From Desulfurococcaceae archaeon (GTDB lineage Archaea; Thermoproteota; Thermoprotei_A; Sulfolobales; NBVN01), in contig JAJHQJ010000013.1 in NCBI GenBank assembly GCA_020833415.1, forward strand, positions 1 through 33,664: a stretch of DNA of 33,664 nt, given 5' to 3'. This document shows, in pieces, positions 8,822 to 32,613 of this stretch. The notes beneath the pieces are model-generated. The model was not told the DNA's origin, did no database searches, and was given only the letters and a program-made list of their open reading frames with translations. Position 1 is the stretch's first letter. The number at the start of each line of letters is the position of its first letter. Position numbers and translations under genes: made by a program.

Positions 8822-9121
8822 GTGGTGAGTATCTCAGGTATGAGTCCTAGCCCGGTGGCAGTAGGTATAGTACTGGGGTATAGGAGGGGTTCAAATACTC
8901 AGTACGTTAACCAGGTCTACATCAGGGTCGTAGGTAACTACAACGTACACAGTCTAGTTGGTCGTAGGGTTAGAGTAGTCGATGGCTATGGGAACGCGTA
9001 CCTGGGTAGGGTAGTCAGGGTCCACGCTAGGGGCAGGAACGGTGTGGTCATAGCTACCTTCAGTAGGAACGTCCCGGGTCAGGTTATAGGTAGGGAGGCT
9101 CTTTTCTACAGCTCTAGTTAG
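8822..9121 (+). CDS. rpl35ae: Ribosomal protein L35Ae
   Basis: Small protein of the large ribosomal subunit, found in many Thermoproteota and eukaryotes. The 99-aa sequence has the family hallmarks: VGIVLGYRRGSNTQYVNQVY at residues 14-33 (pattern GxxxGYRRGxxxQ), the strand VYIRVVG, then VGRRVRVVDGYGNAYLGRVV and a final FSRNVPGQVIGREALFY. The frame opens with GTG at 8822, GTG at 8825 and ATG at 8840; the last is also reasonable. A TATA-like TCTTATATTC lies at 8789-8798. It is a stand-alone gene between two minus-strand genes. Confidence 0.9.
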   Translation: MVSISGMSPSPVAVGIVLGYRRGSNTQYVNQVYIRVVGNYNVHSLVGRRVRVVDGYGNAYLGRVVRVHARGRNGVVIATFSRNVPGQVIGREALFYSSS

Positions 9122-9127
9122 CTACTG

Positions 9128-9913
9128 CTACGTATTAGTTGAGGACCTTAAGCAGGTGTATAGTACAGACCTTACAGCTAGTTCCCTCATACCATCCGTG
9201 TAGCCTGCGAAGAGTATTGAGTTCGAGTATGGTACCTCAAGGACTAGGGGCTCTCCATCGATGTACGCTAGGGGTTTAACATAGTGCCTTAAGCTAGTGT
9301 CCTTCACAGGCGCCAGTTCCACCTCTACAGGCTCCCCGAGGTTAACGCCGTAGAGAATGGGGTGGCTAGACCAGAGTACCCTAACCCTACCTGAGTACTT
9401 AGACACAGTCACACCCTCCAAACCCCTGAGGTCAGCTACTAGCGGGTTGAGGAGGTACTTAGTAAGTAGCTCCTCAGTAGCTCTACACAGAACTCGGCAC
9501 CTACCCCCAGCCGAGCACCCCCCGAAAACCTCCCCTACGTGTTCTGCGAGTAGGCAACCCCCCTCAACAACTACATCACCAGGTGCCGGAGCAAAACCCC
9601 CCTCAACCCAGGAGTTCTCAGCAACTACGTAGTCATATGCGAGGCCACACCTCTCAAAAACCCCCCGGTCAGCAGCTAGAGAAGCGGGTGGCACGACGAT
9701 CTCGAACACCCTACCCCCGGAGCCGTATACAGCAACCGGTGAGGGCTTAGTTAAAAAGATGCTGGCCCCCACCTCACCACAGCCTACTAAAGCCTTTACG
9801 AATTCCGAGACCCCGGTACCGGGTTTAAAGACCTTAACCACGTAGCCCCGCCTTAAACGCAGCGCAATACCCCCGCTTTTCAGGTTGAAATAGGACCTTA
9901 TTAGTGAACACAC
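9128..9913 (-). CDS. Hypothetical protein, 261 aa
   Basis: I cannot place this protein in a family. It is beta-rich in appearance with many VV and GG pairs. It has no signal peptide or membrane helix. Nine or so Cys are scattered (for example GGCSAGGRCRVLC at about residues 131-143), which might bind a metal but match no standard finger. The GTG start at 9913 lies inside the left arm of the perfect palindrome 9892-9962, so the first codons are fixed by that repeat. The true start could be further downstream. Transcribed divergently from the small secreted protein gene and convergently with L35Ae (7 bases apart). Confidence 0.6.
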   Translation of the reverse strand: MCSLIRSYFNLKSGGIALRLRRGYVVKVFKPGTGVSEFVKALVGCGEVGASIFLTKPSPVAVYGSGGRVFEIVVPPASLAADRGVFERCGLAYDYVVAENSWVEGGFAPAPGDVVVEGGCLLAEHVGEVFGGCSAGGRCRVLCRATEELLTKYLLNPLVADLRGLEGVTVSKYSGRVRVLWSSHPILYGVNLGEPVEVELAPVKDTSLRHYVKPLAYIDGEPLVLEVPYSNSILFAGYTDGMRELAVRSVLYTCLRSSTNT

Positions 9914-9962
9914 CCAAAGAATCTCACCGAGATTCTTTGGGTGTGTTCACTAATAAGGTCCT
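9892..9962. repeat. Perfect palindrome: 34-bp arms, 3-base loop
   Basis: Left arm 9892-9925, loop ACC 9926-9928, right arm 9929-9962, with no mismatch by eye. The symmetry ends at T9891 versus G9963. Each arm includes GTGTGTTCACTAATAAGG or its complement. It spans the start region of both divergent genes, so both transcripts could begin with the same sequence or carry a very stable hairpin. It is far longer than an ordinary operator. Possible readings: a regulatory hairpin, a fold-back cloning or assembly artefact, or a relic of a palindromic mobile element. Confidence 0.9.
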
Positions 9963-10179
9963 GAGGGTAGCTGTACTAGTAGTAGTCGTACTCGGAGCAC
10001 TGTTTGGGAGCAACATAGGTTTAGGGGCTAATGAGGGAGAAGTTCAGCCAGCCGATCCCTGCTGGGTAGGTCCCGACGATGCTGGCGTGATAATAGCACC
10101 GGGTACGTGTGATGGTCACGCCCCAGCTGATCCCATAACCGTCACGAGCGAGAATCCTAAGCCTACGCCAGAGAGCTAG
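9943..10179 (+). CDS. Small secreted or membrane-anchored acidic protein
   Basis: No known family. The frame is open from GTG 9904; TTG 9937 and GTG 9943 are alternative starts, all within the palindrome. From 9943 the product is about 78 aa: a short N-terminus (VFTNKVLR), one hydrophobic helix (VAVLVVVVLGALFGSNIGLG) and an acidic, Pro-rich tail with two Cys (PCWVGPD and APGTCDGHAP). This looks like a signal peptide or anchor plus a short extracellular peptide, with a possible disulfide. The next gene in the same direction, 69 bases on, is a membrane-anchored cyanophycinase-like peptidase, so a substrate or partner role is conceivable but unproved. Confidence 0.5.
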   Translation: MFTNKVLRVAVLVVVVLGALFGSNIGLGANEGEVQPADPCWVGPDDAGVIIAPGTCDGHAPADPITVTSENPKPTPES

Positions 10180-10200: not shown

Positions 10201-10212
10201 AACATTTTTAAC
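10201..10212 (+). promoter_or_regulatory. Promoter of the cyanophycinase-like gene
   Basis: The A/T-rich stretch AACATTTTTAACC lies about 37-48 bases before the ATG at 10249, followed by a strong GGAGGGTGG ribosome-binding site at 10237-10245. This suggests the gene has its own promoter besides any read-through from the small gene before it. Confidence 0.5.
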
Positions 10213-10248
10213 CTTTCATCTCTAACAACCGTTCTTGGAGGGTGGTTT

Positions 10249-11475
10249 ATGTCTGCTAAGTCTTTAGCAGTAATCGCTGTCCTAGTAGCTATAGCTCTCT
10301 CTTGTGTAATTGTGCTAGTTACAGTACTTAGACCTACCCGGTATGGAGATGTAGTAACGTCGACTAGGGGGTCCATAGCCGTTGTAGAGGGGTCGTTGAT
10401 TCTCCACGGTGGTAGGTATGTTACGTTCGAACATCTACTAGTTCTGTTCAATGCTACACGCAAGGAGAGACCTCGTATAGGAGTAATGCCAACAGCTCAA
10501 GATAACCCTATTGAGATAGGTCTTGCGTGGGTTAGGTACCTGGAGAGACACGGTGCTGAGGCTGTACTACTAAACATTACTGTAGATAACTGCGCTTGGA
10601 CTTCGCACGATACGAACTTAGTGGAGCTGGTGCGGAGCCTAGATGCAGTGTTCTTCCTAGGGGGGTTCCCGGATAGGTACGTAAGGTGCTTCCTACCTAA
10701 CGGGGTCCCAACACCTGTGCTCTCGGCAGTCTGGGAGCTCTACCTAAGGGGAGGGGTCGTGGCTGGGGCAAGTGGGGGAGCTGTATTTCTTAGCGACTAC
10801 AGTATTCCGAGAGGTTTCGATATCGTTTTCGAGATTATTAGGGGTTTCGGTCTTCCTCAGTATAAGCTAGTAGTGGGCGTTCACTACAACCTCGCCTACG
10901 CAGCTATCATAAGCTTCTTTGAGGTCCTATCTAGGGTGCCCGCTACTATAGGGCTCGCCATAGGTGAGGATACAGCTGTAGTATGTAGAGAGGGGAGGTG
11001 TAGAGTTGTGGGACCGGGTCCTGTACTGCTTCTAGTATACGAAGGTATTGAGAACCAAAGTTACGTGTTTACCCTTAACTACCTAACAGGGGGGGATGAG
11101 TTCACCTTAGTAGATGGAGATGCTGAAGCCTCCAAAGGTAAGACCCTCATCTCGAAGGGGTTTCCACCTAGTGGGTACTCCGTAGATCTAGGGGTCACCG
11201 CTACATCTCCCGAGGACTGGGTATTGAGGGCTATCGATGCCTTAGTAAACTCTAGTAGGGTCCAACTTAGGTTAGTACCTCTCCGCGGTGGAACGACGGC
11301 GTACCTAGTTGAGTTATCCAGAACCCCCGAGACGGCTATCTACGAGACAAGGGTAGCTGTGAGGCGCGGTGCTATCAATATCACTAAGTACACAGCACTG
11401 AGGTTACGGGTAGTCATATCCAGGACCTCGGTACACGAGCTTAACCTAGGCGAGCTTTATAAGTTCTTAAGATGA
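10249..11475 (+). CDS. Membrane-anchored cyanophycinase-like peptidase (S51 family)
   Basis: A 408-aa protein with an N-terminal membrane helix (residues about 4-26) and an extracellular domain of the S51 / cyanophycinase fold. These Ser peptidases cut after or at Asp (dipeptidase E, cyanophycinase). Visible signs: [29 protein letters not shown] (the GG-x-P/Q turn), [15 protein letters not shown] with Ser175 as the likely nucleophile, and [11 protein letters not shown], which is a typical strand of the family. After about residue 265 comes a C-terminal extension of unknown fold. Cyanophycin is not expected in archaea, so the substrate is probably another Asp-rich peptide. It is preceded by a small secreted acidic protein gene and followed 16 bases later by trm56. 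Confidence 0.8.
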
Positions 11476-20990: not shown

Positions 20991-21275
20991 GACCTCCTCC
21001 ACGCCCTGATGGGCTGGGGTTCCCCTAGGGTGGGGAGGTTTAGGGCTACACCCCCTCTTCTTGAGGGTAGCCCCGGGTCGGTCTCCGACCCACTACCCCT
21101 CTCGGGGCTCGGAGTTATGAGTACTCCAACTATTATCGCCTGAGGCTTACAGAGTCTGAGCACTCATCACTGAGTACAACCAATAGAAGACATGTAGACC
21201 CCGAATAGGTGTGGGGAACCGGTGAACCACCCTAGGGGAACCCCCACTCCTTTAGGACAGGAGGAGGTTAGCCTA
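20991..21275. mobile_element. Back-to-back relics of two omega-RNA/transposon ends
   Basis: From 20991, GACCTCCTCCACGCCCTGAT and the following stretch are the minus-oriented 3' end of a TnpB-type omega-RNA. About 21190-21270 is a second, plus-oriented copy: ACCCCGAATAGGTGTGGGGA, later CCTAGGGGAACCCCCACTCC and GGAGGAGGTTAG. The latter matches 30529-30600 in reverse complement. The two 3' ends point away from each other. Between them are strong hairpins (GGGTCGG-TCT-CCGACCC at 21076-21092; AGCCCCG/CGGGGCT). No transposase is left. The whole gap 20777-21638 otherwise holds only the ligase promoter and the tail remnant at 21268-21417. Confidence 0.5.
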
Positions 21276-26557: not shown

Positions 26558-26765
26558 GGAAGCGACCTGCCGCGTATCTAACTAGCGTTTCCCCGCTAAC
26601 GGTACTCGGTGGTATCTGTGTGTACCTGTAACTCCGCTAGCGGGGTTGGGCCTCGGTGTGGGTTCACCAGCATCACCCACACCCCATGGGCCCCCGTCGA
26701 GCCCAACACCACGGGGCTCCCATCTGAGTCCCTAAGTCACCGCAGAGCGGATCATCCAAGAAACT
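26558..26765. other. GC-rich structured block, probable TnpB-tail or omega-RNA relic
   Basis: The block holds several strong stems: GTGTGGGT/ACCCACAC at about 26656-26682, GTTGGGC/GCCCAAC around it, and CCCCGT/ACGGGG further on. A minus-strand open stretch translates as GEPTPRPNPASGVTGTHRYH and similar, a Gly/Pro-rich tail like that at 21268-21417. The arrangement (tail on the minus strand abutting a hairpin with GGTTGTAA-type flank) is the same in both places. A relic of an element related to the one at 20991-21417 is the best guess; an independent structured RNA is possible. Confidence 0.35.
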
Positions 26766-26943
26766 ACAGTGAGAGTAGAGGTATTTAAACATTACTCTAT
26801 GATACCGAGTATTTACAGGTATTCACAGATACTTAAACCTACCATCAGTTTTGCAACAGCCTCACATAACTGTTTAAAGTTTCACATAGGTTAATGTGGT
26901 TTGATACCATTCTCCCGCTACTACTTGAACCCTGGTAGTAGGA

Positions 26944-30766: not shown

Positions 30767-31964
30767 TCATTTTCTCGTTGCACCTAGGGACTTCCTCCTC
30801 GCCCACTCCTTCATCGGTAGCACTGCTACCTCCAGTGCGGGTTCACTGGGCATCGGGGCCAACGGCACAGGCCCCTTGGAAGTTGTATACTTCTTCTCGA
30901 GGGCTCCAAACCCGCACCTAGGGCACTTGAGTTGCCTCGGGGCATCGCCCCCCATCAGCTTAGAGCTGCAGAACGGGCATGTGGATGAGGTGTTCCTAGG
31001 GTCTACCTTAACTACGGGGACCCCCTTCTCCAAGCACTTCTCCTCGATAGCTCTAACCATACCTCTGAACCCTGCTTGGTATATCCTATGCCTTAGCACT
31101 GGGTCTTTAACATCTCTAACCATGTTTCTCGGGCACTGCTTGGGAAGCTTCTCCAGTACAACCACAGCGTTGATGCTCCTAGCTGTATTGGCGACTATGT
31201 TTGCGATCTTCAACCTAATATCTTTCTTTCTCTCTTACGCTCCCTGCTGTGAATAGCTCTACCAGCGTATCCATTGCCCTTAACGCTCTGCACAGCCTCT
31301 TTGTACTTAGCGTATCCAATGGTAATCCTCTTAATCCCCGTCTCAAGGATATACACCTTGCCGTGAACCTTAACAGCCACGTTATCCTCATTAGCATCAA
31401 CAGATATAATAAGTCTAGCACTATCTTCATCAACATTAACAGTCTTGACAAACACGAAGTATACTAGTAGCCTCTTACGCCTATAGACAATCTTTATCTT
31501 CGGTTGCGTTCTCAGGGCTCAGCCACTATTAATGTACCTCCAGTATAGCTTGTGAGGTACTAGCTCTACTGGTATCCAGCCCCTGTGGGTGTAGATGAGG
31601 ATTGTTGTGTACCCTATATGCTTCCACAGGTGGTCGTCAAGCTAAATACTAACCCTACCAACCTCAGGCCTCTCAGTCCTCGCCAAACCCTTCTTCCTGA
31701 GCTTGTTGAAGCTCTTAACCCTGGTGGAAGAGTCTTGACAAGCAACGTGAACATGGTGGCTAGGTAGATGTGGGTATCTTCCGCACAGTTCGTGATGCTT
31801 ATCCCTCTTCAACCTAGTGAATGAGTCAAATGTTGTTTTAAACCATAATTCACGAGCTCTAGGAGAACCTGCCTATAGAGTTCCTCAATTTCTTTAAAGA
31901 CTTCGAGCTTCTTCTCGGTAAGCCTAGCACTCGGCACAACGACTGTCCTAGTGAGTTCACCCAC
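30767..31964 (-). pseudogene. tnpB: TnpB, broken by two frameshifts, two stops and an internal loss
   Basis: RNA-guided nuclease/transposon protein, decayed. From GTG 31964 it reads MGELTRTVVVPSARLTEKKL, shifts frame after THSLG, meets TAG at a Trp position (VSI-stop-LDDHLW), TGA at another Trp (NSG-stop-ALRTQP), then runs through SVDANEDNVAVKV (first RuvC Asp present) to a second shift at 31210. The last part has VVLEKLPKQ (catalytic Glu), then the zinc finger CPFCSSKL with CPRCGF. The finger runs directly into ALEKKYTTSKGP, so the RDV-type stretch carrying the third RuvC Asp is missing. No active nuclease can be made from it. C-terminus matches other archaeal TnpB (PLAPMPSEPA). Confidence 0.88.
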
Positions 31965-32613
31965 TCTTCTCGACCTCTTCTAGTAGCTTTTTGAAGTCCT
32001 CTACGAGCTTCTTTTTCTTACGGCTCCTCATACCGTAGAGCTTCCCAGCGAAGGAAGTTACAATCTCTACGAGGTCCTCTACGAGCTCCTGGTAAGAGTC
32101 TTTAGGTTCCTCTCCGAAGATGACCTCGATTCTAACGCCGTACTGCTTGAAGAAGTGCTCTAGGTACTCAAAGCCGAACCTAGTCAGCCTATCCCTGAAC
32201 GTCACTACAACCACGTCTACCTGTCTACTAACAACGTAGTCGAATAGCTTCTGCAGACCTCTCCTATCGGTCTTCAAGCCACTAGCTACGTCGCTCAGTA
32301 TATCAATAACTCTGTAACCCCTGGAGGAGCAGTACTGTGTTAAGTACTCTATTTGCCTCTCCAGGTCACTCCTCTGATCAGCTGAGCTTACACGTGCGTA
32401 GATAACTGCCCTAACCTCCCTGCTAATGGGTAGACCCTCAGCAATCCTCCTAACCTCACTCTCAGGAACCCTGTACTTACCACCAGCAGTTCTAACAGCC
32501 CTGATCCTACCCTCCCTAACCCACCTAGATAGAGTGGAGTAGCTGATACCAAGCCTCCGGCAGACCTCCCTAGGTCTCAGCAACCTCTCCGAAGACTCTG
32601 GAACAGCTGGCAC
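31957..32613 (-). CDS. tnpA: IS607-family serine recombinase (TnpA)
   Basis: Moves the IS607 element by serine recombination. The 218-aa chain begins with a MerR-like helix-turn-helix (LLRPREVCRRLGISYSTLSR, then WVREGRIRA-type wing) that binds the ends. The serine-recombinase domain follows: VIYARVSSADQRSDLERQ with the nucleophilic Ser in ARVSS, VASGLKTDRRGLQ, and VVVVTFRDRLTRFGFEYLE. A basic tail (RSRKKKKLVEDFKK) ends it. All hallmarks are present and the frame is intact. It starts GTG at 32613. Confidence 0.92.
   Translation of the reverse strand: MPAVPESSERLLRPREVCRRLGISYSTLSRWVREGRIRAVRTAGGKYRVPESEVRRIAEGLPISREVRAVIYARVSSADQRSDLERQIEYLTQYCSSRGYRVIDILSDVASGLKTDRRGLQKLFDYVVSRQVDVVVVTFRDRLTRFGFEYLEHFFKQYGVRIEVIFGEEPKDSYQELVEDLVEIVTSFAGKLYGMRSRKKKKLVEDFKKLLEEVEKSG

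Follow-up and report, generated by a model that had tools for sequence, protein, structure and literature searches.

A perfect 71-base palindrome at a divergent gene start in an archaeal draft genome, most simply read as a scar of strand-switch copying

The window analysed here, 33,664 bases in length, is an entire contig (C3) of an archaeal, hot-spring MAG that consists of 85 contigs and is approximately 82% complete. Roughly 10 kb inside this 33.7-kb contig, a long perfect palindrome lies between two divergent genes (Table 1). The leftward gene, P1, encodes a lineage-restricted protein of unknown function and sits beside the gene for ribosomal protein L35Ae. The rightward gene, P2, encodes an orphan small secreted protein, and beyond it lies a gene for a cyanophycinase-like protein.

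Table 1. Genes and sequence features at the palindrome locus, in window coordinates.
Feature	Position	Strand	Details
Ribosomal protein L35Ae gene	8822-9121	+	Pfam PF01247, E 1.4e-08; synteny
P1, lineage-restricted protein, function unknown	9128-9862	-	Likely start CTG 9862; longer open reading frame to GTG 9913 (left arm)
Perfect inverted repeat, whole	9892-9962		71 bases; AGGACCTTATTAGTGAACACACCCAAAGAATCTC-ACC-GAGATTCTTTGGGTGTGTTCACTAATAAGGTCCT
Left arm of inverted repeat	9892-9925	+	100% complementary to 9929-9962
TATA-like CACTAATAAGGT in left arm	9895-9906	-	-44 to -33 from P1 CTG; mirrored at 9948-9959 (+)
Spacer ACC	9926-9928		3 nt
Right arm of inverted repeat	9929-9962	+	Holds the likely P2 GTG start and the first ~7 codons
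P2, orphan small secreted protein	9943-10179	+	78 aa from GTG 9943; 91 aa if in-frame GTG 9904 (left arm) is used
Cyanophycinase-like (peptidase S51-like) protein, secreted or anchored	10249-11475	+	TIGR02069, E 1.1e-13, below the curated cut-off

P2 is convincingly a coding gene with normal codon usage. Its in-frame codon-usage score of +0.30 resembles that of known genes, whereas the five alternative frames give -0.29 to -1.22. Read from its likely GTG, the N-terminus is MFTNKVLRVAVLVVVVLGAL, typical of a signal peptide, and the right arm of the palindrome runs in frame into this hydrophobic signal. A search of 60 related genomes gave no convincing P2 homologue. The best match (E 0.001), which came from another family and lay antisense to an alcohol-dehydrogenase-like gene, was dismissed as spurious. 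The cyanophycinase-like gene downstream has its own TATA box (10203-10214, promoter score 9.55). Its product carries an N-terminal hydrophobic segment, and a single one of the 60 related genomes, a congener, encodes a homologue (39% identical) in a different place (G002, contig C14).

For P1, the start was assessed by alignment with the six nearest genomes, found via the P1 alignment and referred to below as congeners, all of them uncultured MAGs that carry the label Sulfolobales, Desulfurococcales or Thermoproteota; a search of genome contigs with the P1 sequence alone found nothing. P1 most likely starts outside the palindrome, at CTG 9862 and 30 bp from the left arm, because its homologues have their first residue near position 17-18 of the 261-aa open reading frame, a CTG is conserved at the invariant Leu18 in all six congeners, and two of these have no ATG, GTG or TTG between the preceding in-frame stop and this codon. 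Ahead of the CTG, AGGTG- or GGGTGA-like Shine-Dalgarno sequences can be seen in four congeners. The earlier note, which had the palindrome covering both gene starts, was thus right for P2, whose likely GTG lies in the right arm, and most likely wrong for P1. The P1 family has no match in Pfam or NCBIfam and is confined to this archaeal family in the genomes searched. A conserved CTG start is apparent in all seven genomes of the genus (loci L023-L028 and the window's own P1).

The gene for L35Ae adjoins P1 in all six congeners. Upstream of P1, in place of P2, the congeners carry a universal-stress-protein gene. This usual neighbour is also present in our genome, and is now found on contig C31. 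The palindrome itself is not present upstream of P1 in the congeners. A synteny breakpoint at the palindrome was considered as a special signal and dropped; it is uninformative because, among 19 window proteins compared with the congeners, only L35Ae keeps its place beside P1.

The palindrome stands as it was first described, with 34-bp arms that are complementary at 34 of 34 positions and separated by three bases. Its folding energy is -38.8 kcal/mol as single-stranded DNA; for a 139-nt RNA that includes it the value is -71.3 kcal/mol (z -9.9). The symmetry ends abruptly at both edges. The flanking sequences match at 11 of 60 positions, and their local alignment score was reached by 971 of 1000 shuffles, which indicates that the flanks are unrelated. 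A longer, imperfect symmetry past the arms, suggested by GGGTA pairing in the RNA fold, was no better than in shuffled flanks and was rejected. An Rfam scan of the whole window gave no match, and no tRNA was found that would give the palindrome the context of an attachment site.

Perfect inverted repeats with spacers of up to 20 nt were scanned for in three sets of genomes. From composition alone, about 1e-13 arms of this kind with a spacer of at most 20 nt would be expected by chance in 1.25 Mb. In 812,287 bases (65%) of its own genome, the palindrome is the sole perfect inverted repeat with arms longer than 14 bp. No perfect arm exceeded 13 bp in 482,435 bases from genomes of the same family, or in 800,000 bases from single-contig genomes of the same order. 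Over all scanned sets (0.81, 0.48 and 0.80 Mb), the next-longest perfect arm measured 14 bp. There is no second copy of the arm in its own genome, and a 24-base probe found no match at two or fewer mismatches in 228 other genomes of the class. Likewise, the arm and its flanking DNA had no match among viral contigs, plasmids and phages. The palindrome is one isolated object and belongs to no repeat family, and its arm sequence appears, as far as could be seen in the genomes searched, to be species-specific.

Other parts of the window hold less regular repeats and traces of mobile DNA. An imperfect 42-bp inverted repeat (76%; 20992-21033 and 21227-21268) encloses a 193-bp interior in a gene-poor stretch, and a 20-bp intergenic inverted repeat (90% complementary; 26612-26631 and 26813-26832) has its halves 181 bp apart. 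Towards the far end of the contig, a TnpB C-terminal fragment with a Cas12f1-like TNB domain (30767-31213, minus strand) lies near an IS607-like MerR-resolvase serine recombinase (31957-32613, minus strand). Together they are probably a decayed IS607-type element.

It had been argued that so long an intact hairpin is hard to keep without selection or a very recent origin, which overstates the case. With no mismatch among 34 positions, the divergence of the arms is bounded only to below about 8% (95% upper bound, 1 - 0.05^(1/34)), and P1 is just 40-47% identical between species. The event could therefore date from far back in the history of the species, with the arms still perfect by chance, or repeated template switching may have maintained their identity. 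Perfect 34-bp arms do not by themselves call for selection or an extremely recent origin.

We favour, with a probability of roughly 55%, an origin of the palindrome as an inverted duplication, in which intramolecular template switching copied the start region of P2 back-to-back. In a single event in this lineage, the DNA polymerase would have switched template during replication or repair. At a short inverted repeat close to what became the spacer (GAGATTC...GAATCTC or less), the nascent strand may have folded back, used its own arm as template for about 34 nt, and then resumed its normal template. Of the two arms, the right one is the likelier original, since it forms the 5' end of the P2 gene and is in frame with it; the left arm would be the copy, landing 30 bp upstream of P1. 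This reading draws on the perfect arms, the short spacer, the unrelated flanks, the single copy, the palindrome's status as a lone outlier with a species-specific arm sequence, and the frame shared with P2. Template switching of this kind is known to lengthen perfect repeats in yeast, where an arm of 4 bp grew to 11 bp and one of 5 bp to 16 bp (PMC8604942), and E. coli also shows quasi-palindrome template-switch mutations (PMC7202029). We infer the event, its direction and its date from the sequence as it stands today. Against it weighs that the congeners, with a different gene upstream of P1, offer no orthologous pre-event site for comparison. Because the universal-stress-protein gene occupies the place of P2 there, the ancestral sequence is unseen and the direction unprovable. 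The published yeast arms, at up to 16 bp, are also shorter than those seen here. Moreover, a selected regulatory element could look identical.

A two-way regulatory element had been among the proposals of the earlier note; in such an element, a dimeric or tetrameric regulator would bind mirrored promoter or operator sites for P1 and P2. It is possible given the position of the palindrome between the divergent starts at CTG 9862 (-) and GTG 9943 (+), and given that the TATA-like CACTAATAAGGT of the left arm, mirrored in the right arm, lies at the distance from the P1 CTG at which the genome's learned TATA motif peaks. Nevertheless, a matrix trained on 91 upstream regions of this genome gives this match a score of 5.03, inside the range of random 75-nt stretches (median best 3.1, 90th percentile 6.6). 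The mirrored TATA cannot be the P2 promoter because it falls inside the P2 coding region, where the right arm overlaps P2 codons. There is no regulon, since the scanned 65% of the genome holds no other such palindrome and the arm occurs only once, and the congeners do not conserve the palindrome upstream of P1. Typical prokaryotic operators are much shorter than this palindrome. Taken together, a selected two-way element would be a doubtful reading. A related scenario, in which inverted duplication of the gene start produced a symmetric two-way promoter, each arm providing a TATA-like sequence and a start region for its own side, seems improbable. If true, a single mutation would have brought P2, a secreted-protein gene specific to the lineage, and the divergent P1 under shared control. 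An intrinsic terminator, also suggested previously, is unlikely between diverging genes with no T-run beyond either arm (flanks GAGGGTAG (+) and ATTTCAACC (-)).

A sequencing or assembly artefact, in which a chimeric fold-back molecule or a k-mer misjoin put the palindrome into the contig, is unlikely. The genome is a draft MAG in 85 contigs, the palindrome is absent from all relatives, and chimeric inverted reads are known to arise at small inverted repeats when libraries are prepared (PMC10908179). However, a simple fold-back molecule would be mirror-symmetric to its end, and the flanks here are unique; unrelated flanks instead fit a polymerase that returned to its normal template. The flank geometry thus appears to disfavour the simple fold-back form that the earlier note had raised, though not every possible chimera. 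The site also lies well inside its contig, no other long palindrome occurs in 0.81 Mb of the same assembly, and the genes on both sides look intact. The idea of a mobile-element relic, namely the terminal inverted repeats of an IS or MITE minus the interior, or abutted IS ends, is very improbable. Abutted insertion-sequence ends do resemble 34-bp ends with a 3-bp gap, and an IS607-like recombinase and a TnpB fragment are present elsewhere on the contig; IS607-type elements are not known to carry terminal inverted repeats. A relic is unlikely because target-site duplications are lacking (the arm edges show no direct repeat of 2-11 bp) and there are no further copies, either in the genome or among the 228 class genomes, viral contigs, plasmids and phages, and nowhere in the searched sequences were matching terminal repeats found.

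The observation of the palindrome is confirmed and statistically extreme, and it is best read as a mutational scar that stands alone in a draft genome. Strand-switch copying accounts for it more simply than a novel type of regulatory element would. Any effect that it now has is probably small. The left arm would have been placed where a weak TATA element could serve P1, and transcription through the palindrome, if it occurs, would enclose the P2 start in a highly stable mRNA hairpin. Should template switching be the true origin, the palindrome would be unusual among natural cases of the snap-back type for its length and cleanness, with an uncultured Sulfolobales archaeon as its host, and it would imply that such an event can hit gene starts without visibly breaking either gene. 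Mainly, it adds one data point on archaeal mutation mechanisms and on the tolerance of palindromes.

Several known systems share parts of this architecture. Archaeal divergent promoters with palindromic operators also lie between divergent genes, but the palindrome described here is far longer, not conserved, has no regulon and a poor TATA score. IS ends and MITEs likewise combine an inverted repeat with a short spacer, yet in our case there is no target duplication, no other copy and no associated transposase. The quasi-palindrome template-switch mutations of E. coli and yeast similarly have perfect arms, a spacer of a few bases, one arm templated by the other, and unrelated flanks (PMC7202029, PMC8604942). 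In contrast to the yeast cases, with arms of 11 and 16 bp (PMC8604942), the arms here reach 34 bp and the host is an archaeon. Long perfect inverted repeats over protein-coding sequence are also described for the mitochondrial genomes of Nematomorpha (PMC6649704); those palindromes are numerous and up to 284 bp long, whereas here a single one of 71 bp lies between two genes and over one coding start.
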